From: an uncultured Chitinophagales bacterium
GTDB taxonomy: Bacteria; Bacteroidota; Bacteroidia; Chitinophagales; Chitinophagaceae
Direction of reading: 5' to 3'
Length of the DNA stretch: 29,726 nucleotides
Assembly: GCA_946886475.1 (NCBI GenBank)
Contig: CAMPIQ010000028.1
Coordinates: 1 to 29,726 of the forward strand
Positions 13,428 to 16,377 of this stretch are shown in pieces. The notes below the pieces were generated by a model. That model saw nothing but the letters and a program-made list of their open reading frames with translations, was not told the origin of the DNA and did no database searches. The stretch's first letter is position 1. Each line of letters starts with the position of its first letter. A program made the position numbers and the translations under genes.

Positions 13428-13491
13428 AGCTTTGAGTTGCGGGCTTTGAGTTTCGAGGACACTCGCAGCTCAAAGCTAACAGCCCACAGCT
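13428..13491. repeat. Heptad palindrome (AGCTNNG x4, inverted) in the rpsD-rpoA gap
   Basis: Left arm: AGCTTTG, AGTTGCG, GGCTTTG, AGTTTCG (13428-13455). Loop AGGACACT (13456-13463). Right arm, as inverted units: CGCAGCT, CAAAGCT, AACAGCC, CACAGCT (13464-13491). Each arm is 28 bp. The element ends 1 bp from the rpsD stop codon (13493-13495) and lies 34 bp before the rpoA start. Confidence 0.85.
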
Positions 13492-13492
13492 A

Positions 13493-14098
13493 TTACTTAC
13501 TATACAATTCCACTATCAGCTGCTCCTTGATATTCTCAGGAACGCTTTCTCTTTCAGGATAGGTAATAAAAGTACCTGTCATGGTAGTTTCATTCCAGTC
13601 AACCCAGTTGAATTTAGGGTTCTTACCACGAACTGCGCTGGTAACTGAAGTATTATCTTTTGATTTGTCTTTCAGTGAAATAACATCACCTGGCTTTAAC
13701 TGGTAAGAAGGTACGTTCACTACATCACCATTTACAGTTACGTGTTTGTGGCTCACCAGCTGGCGTGCAGCAGGACGTGAAGGAGCAATGCCCATACGGA
13801 AAACGGCATTATCAAGACGTGCTTCCAGTAATTTAATCAGGTTTTCACCAGTTACACCTTTGCGGCGTGAAGCTTCTTCAAAAGTTTTGCGGAATTGTTT
13901 CTCTAAAACGCCATAAGTGTATTTGGCTTTTTGTTTTTCGCGAAGCTGGAGTGCATATTCACCTAAGCTTTTACGCTTGCGTTGTGCTCCATGCTGACCG
14001 GGAGGGTTGGAATTTTTTCCTAACCATTTACCATTGCCTAAGATCGGCTCACCGAAAATACGGGAGATCTTGGTCTTTGGACCATTGTAACGTGCCAT
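13493..14098 (-). CDS. rpsD: Ribosomal protein S4 (uS4), zinc-free form
   Basis: A 201-residue small-subunit assembly protein. The N-terminal MARYNGPKTKISRIFGEPILG is followed by NSNPPGQHGAQRKRKSLGEYALQLREKQKAKYTYG. An S4 RNA-binding domain (about 90-155) contains RLDNAVFRMGIAPSRPAARQLVSHKHVTVNG. No cysteine cluster is present at the N-terminus, so this is the zinc-independent (C-) form. In other bacteria S4 represses its own operon by binding the leader mRNA; a stem with a large loop lies 15-54 bp upstream of this start. The gene sits between rpsK and rpoA. Confidence 0.98.
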   Translation of the reverse strand: MARYNGPKTKISRIFGEPILGNGKWLGKNSNPPGQHGAQRKRKSLGEYALQLREKQKAKYTYGVLEKQFRKTFEEASRRKGVTGENLIKLLEARLDNAVFRMGIAPSRPAARQLVSHKHVTVNGDVVNVPSYQLKPGDVISLKDKSKDNTSVTSAVRGKNPKFNWVDWNETTMTGTFITYPERESVPENIKEQLIVELYSK

Positions 14099-14113
14099 AG
14101 TTTTTATTCATTT

Positions 14114-14152
14114 CCGCTTTTTAGAAACCGGTGACTTCATCGTTGAAAGCGG
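14114..14152 (-). promoter_or_regulatory. Possible rpsD leader stem-loop
   Basis: CCGCTTT (14114-14120) and AAAGCGG (14146-14152) form a 7-bp stem around a 25-nt loop containing a central ACCGGT. It lies 15-54 nt upstream of the rpsD start in the mRNA and is separate from the heptad palindrome in the same gap. S4 is a known translational autoregulator in other bacteria, so a role in control is possible but unproven. Confidence 0.3.
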
Positions 14153-14204
14153 TAAAAATTAATGAAGCACCCTTTATTAAATGAATAGCGTTGGCTATAT
14201 GTTT

Positions 14205-14268
14205 AGCTGCGGGCTTTGCGCTTTGAGCTTCGAGGTTCCCCGCAGCTCGTAGCTATCAGCTCATAGCT
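14205..14268. repeat. Heptad palindrome (AGCTNNG x4, inverted) in the rpsK-rpsD gap
   Basis: Left arm: AGCTGCG, GGCTTTG, CGCTTTG, AGCTTCG (14205-14232). Loop AGGTTCCC (14233-14240). Right arm, inverted units: CGCAGCT, CGTAGCT, ATCAGCT, CATAGCT (14241-14268). The element ends 2 bp from the rpsK stop codon (14271-14273), and its other end is 106 bp from the rpsD start. Confidence 0.87.
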
Positions 14269-14270
14269 TC

Positions 14271-14687
14271 TTAAACTCTTCTCTTTTTCGGAGGCCTGCA
14301 GCCATTGTGAGGCAGCGGGGTCACATCCTTGATCATATTAACTTCAATGCCTGACTGGGCCAGTGCGCGGATAGCGCTTTCCCTGCCGGCACCAGGACCT
14401 TTTACAAATACATCAACTCTTTTCACACCTGCATCTGTTGCCACCTTGGATGCATCCGCGGAAGCCATTTGCGCAGCATATGGGGTGTTCTTTTTAGAAC
14501 CCTTGAAACCCATTTTACCGGCACTTGACCAGGAAATAACCTGACCCTGTTTGTTAGTGATGCTGATGATCAGATTGTTGAACGTTGCATTAATATGTGC
14601 ATCGCCATAGGAGTCAACCTTTACGATTCTTTTTTTAGCGGCTGCTTTTGCGCTTTGACCTTTTCCGCCTGATTGTGCTTTTGCCAT
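14271..14687 (-). CDS. rpsK: Ribosomal protein S11 (uS11)
   Basis: A 138-residue small-subunit platform protein. A basic Ala/Lys-rich N-terminal tail (about 1-20) is followed by the conserved core HINATFNNLIISITNKQGQVISWSSAGKMGFKGSKKNTPYAAQ, KGPGAGRESAIRAL and the C-terminal signature DVTPLPHNGCRPPKKRRV. Start and length fit the family. It lies between rpsM and rpsD in the standard order. A compact stem-loop lies about 32-51 bp upstream of its start. Confidence 0.99.
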   Translation of the reverse strand: MAKAQSGGKGQSAKAAAKKRIVKVDSYGDAHINATFNNLIISITNKQGQVISWSSAGKMGFKGSKKNTPYAAQMASADASKVATDAGVKRVDVFVKGPGAGRESAIRALAQSGIEVNMIKDVTPLPHNGCRPPKKRRV

Positions 14688-14719
14688 TTTAATTAGGTAA
14701 TCTTTCTTTTTTAAAATAA

Positions 14720-14738
14720 TCCCGGTTCATCACCGGAA
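14720..14738 (-). promoter_or_regulatory. Stem-loop in the rpsK leader, possible attenuator
   Basis: On the minus strand TTCCGGT, loop GATGA, ACCGGGA form a 7-bp stem (one G-U pair) followed by a T/A-rich stretch TTATTTTAAAAAAG. It lies 32-50 nt before the rpsK start and between two cistrons of one operon. It resembles a weak terminator, so partial termination or mRNA processing is possible. This is separate from the heptad palindrome at 14805-14870. Confidence 0.35.
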
Positions 14739-14804
14739 CCTGAATCAACCCTCCACCGCACTAAGGTATCCGCAATTGAATCAGTTATAATAGTGCTATA
14801 ATAC

Positions 14805-15476: not shown

Positions 15477-15488
15477 AATATTTTTTTG

Positions 15489-15551
15489 AGCTTCTGGCTT
15501 TGAGCCATGAGCTTCGAGGATCTCGCAGCCCGCGACTCGATGCTCGCAGCT
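15489..15551. repeat. Heptad palindrome (AGCTNNG x4, inverted) in the infA-rpmJ gap
   Basis: Left arm: AGCTTCT, GGCTTTG, AGCCATG, AGCTTCG (15489-15516). Loop AGGATCT (15517-15523). Right arm, inverted units: CGCAGCC, CGCGACT, CGATGCT, CGCAGCT (15524-15551). The last T belongs to the infA stop codon (TTA on plus at 15551-15553), so element and gene share a base. The other end is 12 bp from the rpmJ start. Confidence 0.82.
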
Positions 15552-15769
15552 TATTTATATCTAAAAATAATTCTCCCTCTCGACAGATCATATGGACTCA
15601 TCTCCACTCCCACCTTATCTCCAGGCAAAATCCGTATGTAGTGCATCCTCATCTTTCCAGAGATCGTAGCCAGGATTTCGTGTCCGTTCTCAAGCTTCAC
15701 CCTGAACATTGCGTTAGATAAAGCTTCTATAATAGTTCCGTCCTGTTTGATTAATGGCTGTTTCGACAT
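15551..15769 (-). CDS. infA: Translation initiation factor IF-1
   Basis: A 72-residue single OB-fold protein, normal length. MSKQPLIKQDGTIIEALSNA, then FRVKLENGHEILATISGKMR, then IRILPGDKVGVEMSPYDLSRGRI, cover the family signature. IF-1 binds the 30S A site during initiation. It is the first gene of the operon here. secY and map, which commonly precede it in Bacteroidota, are absent, and a promoter-like -7 box lies 16 bp upstream of its ATG. Confidence 0.98.
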   Translation of the reverse strand: MSKQPLIKQDGTIIEALSNAMFRVKLENGHEILATISGKMRMHYIRILPGDKVGVEMSPYDLSRGRIIFRYK

Positions 15770-15785
15770 ACTGAATTTGGGAGCG

Positions 15786-15793
15786 CAAAGATA
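15786..15793 (-). promoter_or_regulatory. Predicted -7 box of the infA operon promoter
   Basis: TATCTTTG on the minus strand fits TAnnTTTG exactly and lies 16 bp upstream of the infA start, giving a very short leader. No exact TTTG is seen at the -33 distance, only a T-rich stretch belonging to the upstream terminator. Together with that terminator at 15811-15838 it supports infA as the first gene of the transcript. Confidence 0.55.
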
Positions 15794-15810
15794 TGGGGAA
15801 TACGGTTAAA

Positions 15811-15838
15811 AAAGAAAAAATCCCACACCAGGCGGGAT
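15811..15838 (-). terminator. Rho-independent terminator of the hypothetical gene
   Basis: On the minus strand ATCCCGC, loop CTGGT, GTGGGAT form a 7-bp stem with one G-U pair (15820-15838), followed by TTTTTTCTTTTTT. It lies 35 bp after the stop of the gene at 15874-16281 and separates it from the infA operon. Confidence 0.8.
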
Positions 15839-15873
15839 CAAAACTCCGATATTTTTAAAATAATTAAGAAGTT

Positions 15874-16281
15874 TTAGTGTGCCGGCACCCTTTCCAGGTA
15901 CACTTTGGTCATCTGAAGGTGATGATTTTGTAGCTCATGGAGGTATAAAGGATGGTTAAAATGCCTCCTGTCCTCGCGGTACCAGATATCAAGACTGGTA
16001 TAGTTACCGGGGTCGTGAACAACCACCCTGAACGGACCTTTTTTATATTTTGTGCCTTCCGGTGTTACTTCCTTTTCAAATCCCAGGGTATTGATCAGCT
16101 GTTCTTCTGTAAGCGGAACGGGTATGATGTTCTCCTGGCTATACCAGAAATCCTGGGTCCCGTTATTAATACTGGCCATGTTCTCTTCACGGCTTATTTC
16201 AACAACAGTCCCTAATCTTTCATCTCCCGAATCAATAACCTTTACAATATCGCCTTCTTTAAGTTCTGATACTTTAACCAT
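15874..16281 (-). CDS. Hypothetical protein with an N-terminal Tudor/KOW-like barrel
   Basis: A 135-residue protein not recognised with certainty. The N-terminus (VKVSELKEGDIVKVIDSGDERLGTVVEI, about 2-30) reads like a small SH3/KOW-like beta barrel. The C-terminus contains LDIWYREDRRHFNHPLYLHELQNHHLQMT. The HELQN pattern resembles a motif (VHQLQNLYFALTGEE-like) in small proteins of Bacteroidota mobile elements and phages; that resemblance is from memory. It has no signal peptide or TM segment, so it is probably cytoplasmic. It lies 100 bp downstream of hmgA on the same strand, with a heptad palindrome between, and is followed by a good terminator. Confidence 0.75.
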   Translation of the reverse strand: MVKVSELKEGDIVKVIDSGDERLGTVVEISREENMASINNGTQDFWYSQENIIPVPLTEEQLINTLGFEKEVTPEGTKYKKGPFRVVVHDPGNYTSLDIWYREDRRHFNHPLYLHELQNHHLQMTKVYLERVPAH

Positions 16282-16311
16282 AGCTTTTGATTTATACTCA
16301 ATTTACAAAGA

Positions 16312-16377
16312 AGCTTCGAGTTTTGAGCCAGGAGCTACGGGTTTTACCTCACAACTAAAACCTCGCAGCCCATAGCT
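16312..16377. repeat. Heptad palindrome downstream of hmgA
   Basis: Left arm: AGCTTCG, AGTTTTG, AGCCAGG, AGCTACG (16312-16339). Loop of 10 bp. Right arm, inverted units: CACAACT, AAAACCT, CGCAGCC, CATAGCT (16350-16377). It ends 4 bp from the hmgA stop codon (16382-16384). It shows that the family is not restricted to the ribosomal operon. Confidence 0.82.

Follow-up and report, generated by a model that had tools for sequence, protein, structure and literature searches.

Heptad palindromes at stop codons of a ribosomal-protein operon

The window, by which we mean the whole 29,726-nucleotide stretch of DNA analysed, carries seven heptad palindromes of four plus four units, each of which starts at most 6 nt past a stop codon in a motif-free scan. 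Their host genes lie within or adjoin a ribosomal-protein operon. Six of the palindromes had been described in a first-pass annotation of the sequence, and their coordinates, the four units in each arm and the inversion of the arms all hold, as does the 13-bp perfect stem pointed out in one of them. The seventh was absent from that list; a shortened form of it was also recovered as an inverted pair. The features are listed below, with palindromes given without strand.

4204..4241: short heptad palindrome, AGCCAAT/AGCTATT, in a convergent-ORF gap, overlapping the end of ORF 1714-4215 (+)
11596..11623, minus strand: intrinsic-terminator-like stem and U-tract, 3′ of L17, the last operon gene
12180..12207, plus strand: single four-unit array, AGTTTAA/AGTTCAA, lag-7 peak 26/35, 9 nt 5′ of the start codon of L17
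12297..12386: seventh palindrome, AAAATTC type, 34-nt loop, score 0.77, 5 nt past the rpoA stop (CDS 12392-13393, −)
13428..13491: heptad palindrome 4+4, core 13430-13489, score 0.79, 1 nt past the stop of S4 (CDS 13493-14098, −)
14205..14268: heptad palindrome 4+4, score 0.79, 2 nt past the stop of S11 (CDS 14271-14687, −)
14805..14870: heptad palindrome 4+4, score 0.77, 6 nt past the stop of S13 (CDS 14877-15257, −)
15291..15357: heptad palindrome 4+4, score 0.82, folds, 13-bp perfect stem, 2 nt past the L36 stop
15360..15476, minus strand: small CDS, 38 aa by translation, which we take to be ribosomal protein L36
15489..15551: heptad palindrome 4+4, core 15491-15549, score 0.77, at the stop of IF-1 (CDS 15551-15769, −)
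15819..15839, minus strand: intrinsic-terminator-like stem and U-tract, 3′ of ORF 15874-16281, the gene in this series that lacks a heptad palindrome
16312..16377: heptad palindrome 4+4, AGCTNNG type, score 0.73, 4 nt past the stop of the HgmA-like ORF 16382-17539 (−)
21013..21050: short heptad palindrome, GGCCAAT/AGCCAAT, directly 3′ of the stop of ORF 20026-21012 (+)

The 7-bp period was assessed by autocorrelation of the six elements, which peaks at lags 7, 14 and 21 (self-identity 0.54, 0.49 and 0.46, against 0.16-0.28 at other lags up to 30). Among 2000 draws of six random 64-bp segments from the window, the highest lag-7 identity was 0.38. Three consecutive RGCYNNK units, with one mismatch allowed, gave 39 overlapping matches in the window, compared with a mean of 0.52 and a largest count of 3 in 100 shuffles. 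When inverted pairs of period-7 four-unit arrays were sought with no motif specified, 8 matches came up, and none in one shuffle; the matches are the six palindromes, 12297-12386 and a weak pair at 12180-12245. With the cut equally loose, periods 5, 6, 8 and 9 gave 14, 3, 0 and 1 matches (2, 1, 0 and 0 in shuffled sequence).

Period, unit number and placement in relatives

The first-pass annotation had proposed that the palindromes form a family other than the usual terminator, REP or ERIC; the data support this and show the family to be common among relatives. In 81 related loci, 111 inverted four-unit pairs were found at period 7 (1 in shuffled sequence) and 38 at period 8 (0 in shuffled sequence), with none at periods 9-11. 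Arm lengths, counted from three-unit seeds, have their mode at four for heptads (58, 107, 19 and 5 arms with three, four, five and six units). Octad arms, seeded in the same way, peak at three units and show no four-unit preference (48, 31 and 7 with three, four and five units), which counts against reading the arrays as gene-edge elements.

The arrays have a polarity relative to the genes that they adjoin. At the rpoA loci, the coding strand is the G-rich one in 124 arrays near stops, against 14 of the opposite polarity, and the C-rich one in 65 arrays near starts, against 12. The same holds in genome G003 (37 vs 7 at stops, 18 vs 4 at starts). Polarity is weak in genome G009 (6 vs 4 and 10 vs 6), and this counts against a gene-edge role. 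Unpaired arrays keep the polarity (48 vs 5 and 22 vs 8), and the single array upstream of L17 in the window, whose G-bearing strand is antisense to the gene, agrees with the strand rule. Among inverted pairs less than 80 bp apart at the rpoA loci, 53 of 62 have G-then-C order, whereas pairs 300-1500 bp apart at these loci showed no orientation preference (15 vs 15), for which reason long-range brackets around genes were rejected.

In codirectional gaps, 80 of 144 elements start 0-9 nt past a stop, and this anchoring persists in some gaps that offer hundreds of free bases. Gaps between divergent ORFs are poorer in elements when pooled outside the ribosomal-protein operon (11/239 vs 84/837, p=0.009), a deficit not seen in G009 (3/56 vs 7/166) or in the ribosomal-protein windows (5/23 vs 77/325). 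The gap counts do not include the window itself. Gene edges were taken from mechanical ORFs, mostly of at least 100 aa, in which L36, IF-1 and other small genes were missed (a spurious plus-strand ORF took the place of IF-1 in the window set), so some of the large stop distances are false.

The units often share a core. For 86 distinct consensus heptads, the AGT column order has an information of 2.54, compared with at most 2.05 in column-permuted controls. In whole genomes, the reversed control TGA is common as well, in several of them more so than AGT; we therefore do not claim AGT alone as a universal core.

RNA-level tests

Pairing of the arms as an RNA hairpin is not supported by our data. 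In a register set of 113 elements, whose filter did not recover the six of the window, mirrored units match at 0.77 (chosen as the best), hardly better than the 0.68-0.71 obtained after shifting one arm by one or two units. For the wobble test identical elements were counted once, which left 206 (153 heptad and 53 octad); in the 103 elements near stops, G·T mismatches on the coding strand (106) are not in excess over A·C mismatches (123). Neither result supports selection for an RNA stem, and neither confirms the initial impression that arm mismatches are often compensated or G-U capable. Of the initial proposal of heptad-built hairpins acting in RNA or DNA, the palindrome family stands, whereas action as an RNA hairpin is not supported by register or wobble and action on DNA is still conceivable.

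Intrinsic terminators were called at none of the seven window elements, which rules out that these are U-tract terminators; the called terminators stand at both ends of the palindrome stretch. A T-run of at least 5 occurs in 9 of the 103 elements near stops and in 8 of 164 ordinary hairpins, a comparison that shows no difference and has little discriminating value. No Rfam match at gathering score was obtained in the window. Each of the six window elements has at most two runs of at least three G per strand, too few for a G-tract quadruplex, which is thus impossible for them.

An mRNA hairpin past the stop could, in a REP-like manner, protect 3′ ends or slow ribosomes and so tune the expression of operon genes. 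The elements do lie no more than 15 nt from stops, a zone in which REPs reportedly stall ribosomes according to the part of the account cited here (PMC12306157), and they are commoner in codirectional ribosomal-protein gaps (72/304) than in the remainder of the same loci (25/266). Additionally, most elements of the window have stronger folds than shuffled sequence (z −1.6 to −5.3, as DNA), and plain hairpins fill the equivalent gaps in some relatives. On the other hand, G·U is no more frequent than A·C, pairing is not position-specific, the strand rule also applies at starts and in divergent gaps, and hairpins need no 7-bp period. We consider this explanation improbable, and a constraint on DNA rather than on mRNA is slightly favoured.

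Turnover at orthologous sites

Orthologous gaps often retain the geometry of the element while the unit sequence turns over, and one orthologous site holds different unit families in different relatives; unit families of single relatives were read by eye, and this reading covered 8 of the 20 added loci. Whole-family turnover at one site means that no particular sequence is required there, which counts against a gene-edge element. The same is true of the ordinary hairpin, or nothing at all, that occupies the equivalent gap in several relatives.

Rates were taken from 35 same-family pairs and four hand-picked groups; the full list has 108 aligned pairs, many of which align in the flanks only. 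With columns classed by a third sequence, divergence is 0.152 in core columns, 0.358 in variable columns and 0.453 in loops. Core columns diverge more slowly in three of the four ortholog groups; the effect is absent in the Flavihumibacter group (0.181 vs 0.200), again a point against the gene-edge interpretation. Gaps of 7 nt in an arm were found only 3 times in the 35 same-family pairs, two of them involving locus L048, and a difference of 28 nt, or four units, separates loci L059 and L062.

These data also bear on a mutational origin, in which 7-8-nt slippage or re-priming in tolerant intergenic DNA, with inversion via template switching, would generate the arrays with little or no function. 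Rehm et al. cite, in the portion considered here, the hypothesis that heptamers are common owing to how long a piece of DNA the polymerase holds (PMC4692102). The turnover of unit sequence, the long uniform arrays of G003, such as (GGCTACT)n and (GTTTGTA)n, and the presence of arrays in convergent and codirectional gaps and, more rarely, in divergent ones are as such an origin would have it. It is at odds with the rarity of 7-nt arm gaps between orthologs, with a core that is kept across species where variable columns are not, with the four-unit mode, with stop anchoring even where hundreds of bases are free, and with the ORF-edge polarity of unpaired arrays. It seems unlikely to us, although it is the strongest of the alternatives.

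A further candidate is the footprint of a mobile palindrome, MITE- or REPIN-like, that targets stop codons. Different families do occupy one site in relatives, and the loops of two elements at locus L004 look alike by eye, but there are dozens of unit families per clade. Moreover, among loops of at least 18 nt in sampled stretches, non-self matches numbered 0 for 11 loops in G009 and 5 for 23 loops in G003, a single repeat-like loop accounting for all five; copying and pasting via shared loops has thus left little sign in the sampled stretches of these two genomes. REP, BIME and REPIN elements, as described in the parts of the literature cited, are likewise intergenic palindromes located in part at most 15 nt from a stop (PMC12306157; PMC3733652; PMC3116915), but they share a sequence family, have tagged ends and lack a 7-bp period. 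Inspection of the window elements revealed no shared family with a GTAG or CGTC end tag, the unit families among relatives are many and unrelated in sequence, and 100 kb of E. coli K-12 (10,263 intergenic bp) contained no inverted arrays at periods 5-11. We consider a mobile origin very improbable.

Arrays as proposed gene-edge elements

The arrays are best read as constrained DNA-level gene-edge elements, and we give this explanation as a whole a probability of about 40%. The 7-bp period, the four-unit mode of the heptads, the polarity, the placement, a geometry kept under unit turnover and the slower core divergence in three of four ortholog groups are shown by the data. Four units of 7 bp (8 bp in some cases) would be placed at an ORF edge such that the strand bearing G, and often an AGT or AGC core, points away from the gene; often another array of that family, opposite in direction, would face the first. 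The arrays may then act on DNA as gene-boundary elements, their essential feature perhaps being the array of four 7-bp units together with a family-specific core. A putative oligomeric factor that binds double- or single-stranded DNA could read the array unit by unit, and we put forward such a dedicated factor tentatively. The few 7-nt arm gaps suggest that arrays change blockwise and not via free single-unit slippage.

Comparison with known heptamer repeats

Reports of an excess of heptamer repeats in the intergenic DNA of bacteria date back to 2007, with no accepted explanation, according to the part of Rehm et al. 2015 used here (PMC4692102). The Xanthomonas and Nostoc heptamers described there, GGGAATC and GGGGA(C/T)T, prefer four units and are mostly intergenic, lying either on the sense strand at most 50 bp from a stop or on the antisense strand ahead of an ORF, and rarely between divergent ORFs. 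Repeat length and sequence differ among close species, and a function was not found. In two Xanthomonas genomes, heptamers form convergent inverted pairs, 70 in one and 75 in the other, so the first-pass annotation, in which heptanucleotide repeats figured as simple tandem arrays, was incomplete on this point. The Chitinophagaceae arrays have in common with these heptamers the 7-bp period, four units, the strand rule and convergent pairing, and are very probably of the same kind. They differ from them, as far as the cited text goes, in having many unit families instead of one, octad versions, prominent inverted pairs and a concentration in ribosomal-protein gaps, and in lacking G-tracts, because of which they form no quadruplex. 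Among the matches listed in open-licence PMC articles, no paper dealt with heptad palindromes of Chitinophagaceae.

Two other repeats are possible kin. In Geobacter metallireducens, the passages cited describe four-heptanucleotide elements (GGACCGG, 49 copies) and paired five-heptanucleotide sites (PMC2700814). Four tandem heptamers and the strand-switching layout of the second class are as in our arrays, whereas each class has one sequence family and also occurs within genes; the passages cited report no strand rule. TAACTGA direct repeats occur in Beggiatoaceae, cyanobacteria and five Bacteroidetes and were proposed as translational sites, as stated in the part of MacGregor's account cited (PMC4679880). 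Their 7-bp units fit the strand rule, the C-bearing strand being the sense one ahead of starts, and a single reverse set lying immediately past a stop in a Bacteroidetes genome; unlike our arrays, they have a single sequence in two to six copies, are nearly always direct and mostly precede starts. A general gene-edge code, in which four 7-bp units of any sequence with an outward G strand would mark or insulate gene boundaries in Bacteroidota, Xanthomonas, Nostoc, Geobacter and Beggiatoaceae through a shared type of oligomeric factor with one protomer per unit, is a doubtful extension. If it were true, single-family models based on quadruplexes, phase variation or translation would be special cases or wrong.

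Our data point to heptad arrays as a widespread, little-noticed type of bacterial gene-edge element. What is new is that many unit families without G-tracts, dozens in all, follow one rule set: 7 bp, four units, an outward G strand, stop anchoring and convergent pairs. Quadruplex formation is thus not the general reason for four units. Comparing many families separates constrained features from free ones, and since units turn over at one and the same orthologous site among close relatives, selection can be tested directly against mutation. The cyanobacterial STRR, whose function is given as unknown in the text cited, are by description similar in being intergenic 7-bp repeats, one four-repeat example of which has a putative hairpin (PMC2670836).

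Inverted heptad arrays at gene ends of the window

The following genes and heptad elements were assigned in the window:

IF-1, S13, S11, S4, rpoA and L17: minus strand, Pfam matches
Small CDS of the same operon, which we take to be L36: minus strand, read from its translation, without Pfam support
HgmA-like ORF and a 135-aa ORF without Pfam match: ahead of the IF-1 to L17 genes
13428-13491, 14205-14268, 14805-14870, 15291-15357, 15489-15551, 16312-16377: six palindromes
12297-12386: seventh palindrome, after rpoA, heptad different from the six (motif-free scan)
9 nt upstream of the L17 start: single four-unit AGTTTAA-type array
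4204-4241 and 21013-21050: shorter heptad palindromes at the ends of plus-strand ORFs

The six palindromes were located where the first-pass annotation had placed them. A motif-free scan for any two four-unit arrays of a given period, inverted relative to each other, found eight period-7 locations in the window, against zero in a single shuffled copy; these are the six, the seventh and a weak one before L17. Elements start no more than 6 nt past the stop of seven genes (HgmA-like ORF, IF-1, L36, S13, S11, S4 and rpoA). Ordinary U-tract stems, instead of palindromes, lie 3' of the ORF at 15874-16281 and of L17, the last operon gene. At 17693-17927 we also noted an inverted repeat whose 40-nt arms are 90% complementary and built of 19-bp AAGAGGTTAAAAGAGG-type units, with six overlapping copies in one of the arms; its design is the same, on a longer unit.

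Period and abundance

The 7-bp period attributed to the six is present, with identities of 0.54, 0.49 and 0.46 at lags 7, 14 and 21 compared to 0.16-0.28 at other lags. Across the window and 80 rpoA loci from relatives, 183 intergenic hairpins picked on complementarity alone showed arm autocorrelations of 0.47, 0.47 and 0.48 at these lags and 0.33 at lag 8 (about 0.29 once shuffled). Values of at least 0.5 were reached at lag 7 by 89 of the 183 and at lag 8 by 35, the two sets overlapping. The proposed repeat family also stands out from chance: 234,695 intergenic bp of this set held 111 inverted four-unit arrays of period 7 (shuffled, 1) and 38 of period 8 (0). Other periods gave 15 (5) at 5, 4 (1) at 6, 0 (1) at 9 and none, shuffled or not, at 10 and 11.

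In sampled genome stretches, arrays of periods 7 and 8 numbered 28 and 6 in Flavisolibacter longurius (G003), 12 and 3 in G009, 2 and 0 in G016, 1 and 2 in Niabella defluvii (G014), 1 and 5 in G052, and 0 and 0 in two phylum-sample genomes (G076, G114); the sole period-9 match was in G009. No inverted array of periods 5-11 was found in 100 kb of E. coli K-12 with 10,263 intergenic bp. Five AGT spaced 7 bp occurred in 55/79 family-drawn and 73/118 phylum-drawn genomes, and spaced 9 bp in 8/79. The reversed control, TGA at 7-bp spacing, was also common, as expected if other trinucleotides recur every 7 bp too. By far the densest AGT-heptad genome of the phylum sample was G132 (2.4 Mb; 504 five-unit and 416 reversed-control matches). 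A G003 locus (L201) carries one heptad-bearing segment twice, at 5293-5626 and 11319-11652, about 6 kb apart with equal distances, a segmental duplication.

Unit number, polarity and placement

With a three-unit seed, heptad arms had 3, 4, 5 and 6 units in 58, 107, 19 and 5 cases; with a two-unit seed, 2, 3, 4 and 5 units in 14, 4, 27 and 3. Shuffled sequence gave no match in this count. Octad arms (8-bp units; three-unit seed) had 3, 4 and 5 units in 48, 31 and 7 cases and thus peak at three, so that a rule of four units is demonstrated for heptads but not for octads.

Read inward, the arms of 153 heptad elements contain AGT 339 times versus ACT 38 times, and GAG 243 versus CTC 19. At rpoA loci, the coding strand was G-rich in arrays within 25 bp of stops (124 versus 14) and C-rich near starts (65 versus 12). 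The corresponding counts were 37 versus 7 and 18 versus 4 in G003, 6 versus 4 and 10 versus 6 in G009, and 6 versus 2 and 3 versus 2 in G016 and G052 together. Unpaired arrays obey the same rule (48 versus 5 at stops, 22 versus 8 at starts). The G-bearing strand is the one running 5' to 3' away from the ORF, whatever the gene direction.

Among 144 elements in codirectional gaps, 80 start 0-9 nt past the upstream stop and 34 are at least 60 nt off, in part because small genes went uncalled. Counting gaps of at least 70 bp outside the r-protein operon, an element was carried by 11/239 divergent, 25/192 convergent and 59/645 codirectional gaps. This divergent depletion was absent in G009 when taken by itself (3/56 versus 5/140 and 2/26) and likewise in r-protein windows (5/23 divergent gaps with an element). 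Codirectional r-protein gaps carried elements more often than those elsewhere in the same loci (72/304 versus 25/266, p=6e-6).

Stem, terminator and quadruplex tests

The palindromes had been proposed to be hairpins acting in RNA or DNA, with arm mismatches often G-U capable. Over 113 elements, mirrored units match at 0.77 in the register that was chosen as best; shifting them by one or two units gives 0.68-0.71, and adjacent units within an arm match at 0.72. Mismatches on the mRNA strand did not favour G.T over A.C (106 versus 123 near stops, 155 versus 163 over all codirectional elements), and regularity does not differ between the two arms (0.69 and 0.72, p=0.18). Register, mismatch counts and equal arms argue that the elements were not selected as mRNA stems; a hairpin in the mRNA is a less likely explanation of them. 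Folded as single-stranded DNA, the seven window elements gave z values of -2.7, -1.7, -3.6, -5.3, -2.5, -2.5 and -1.6, so that a stem is possible though not always outstanding. None of the seven was called as a terminator, in agreement with the view that they are not usual ones. Runs of at least three G number at most two per strand in the six.

Rehm et al. 2015 (PMC4692102) describe GGGAATC and GGGGA(C/T)T arrays, link the unit number of four to quadruplex formation and report no function found. Elements here resemble those repeats, as described there, in having the same period and strand rule, preferring four units, occurring rarely between divergent ORFs and forming convergent pairs, but comprise dozens of unit families without G-tracts. 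The layout works alike and the quadruplex comparison fails; we therefore class them as a variant outside the Rehm G4 family. Other reports describe 49 four-heptanucleotide elements, alongside a strand-switching class that mostly has five, in Geobacter metallireducens (PMC2700814), TAACTGA arrays, mostly ahead of starts, in Beggiatoaceae, 15 cyanobacteria and five Bacteroidetes (PMC4679880), and a Nostoc STRR with four repeats and a putative hairpin (PMC2670836). The elements studied here obey the same geometric rules.

Turnover and constraint

The site after S11 holds AGCTNNG units in the window and, read by eye in relatives, AGTCCGA (L003), GATGACA (L253), AATGTTG (L254), GATGACG (L257), AGTCGGA (L262), AATCTGG (L263), an octad (L005) or no heptads (L256); further relatives have plain hairpins or nothing. 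The S4 leader 3' of these elements remains recognisable despite the unit turnover. At another site the family is retained: after IF-1, the AGCTGTT palindrome is alignable over five loci.

Four ortholog groups were chosen by hand, and a third member served to class the columns. Core columns differed at 0.152, variable columns at 0.358 and loops at 0.453; flanks, largely coding or leader sequence, differed at 0.183. No p-value is attached, since the same pairs were counted under several definers. The core was slower in three groups and without effect in Flavihumibacter (0.181 versus 0.200). Arm gaps of 7 nt were seen in 3 of 35 same-family pairs, two of them involving L048; between L059 and L062 the difference is 28 nt, the length of exactly four units. 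Unit shuffling would spare the core within an array too, but shuffling alone would not keep it constant across species with diverse variable columns. We favour a gene-boundary array acting at the DNA level because the elements are polarised at ORF edges, show no RNA signature and diverge more slowly in their core; such an array would, we infer, be read unit by unit. An attractor born of slippage and without function is nearly as likely as this reading.

Leader-like conserved stretches lie past palindromes before S11, S4 and L17 (14688-14800, 14099-14190 and 12220-12290) and recur in most of the relatives inspected, for example a TTGACACGGTGCAG-like motif before L17. Rfam gave no match in the window, these stretches included; they may be autoregulatory leaders. 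In Chitinophagales bacterium 33-2 (L001), the closest locus by RpoA identity, the S4-rpoA gap (2185-2850) contains a fragment of the rpoA start together with part of a second S4 copy, through either duplication at this locus or misassembly. The r-protein gaps of L008, L009, L010, L029 and L266, from several genera, share a recurring non-heptad sequence of the GCGACGCAA...CAGGCGATGA...CTGGTAAC type.
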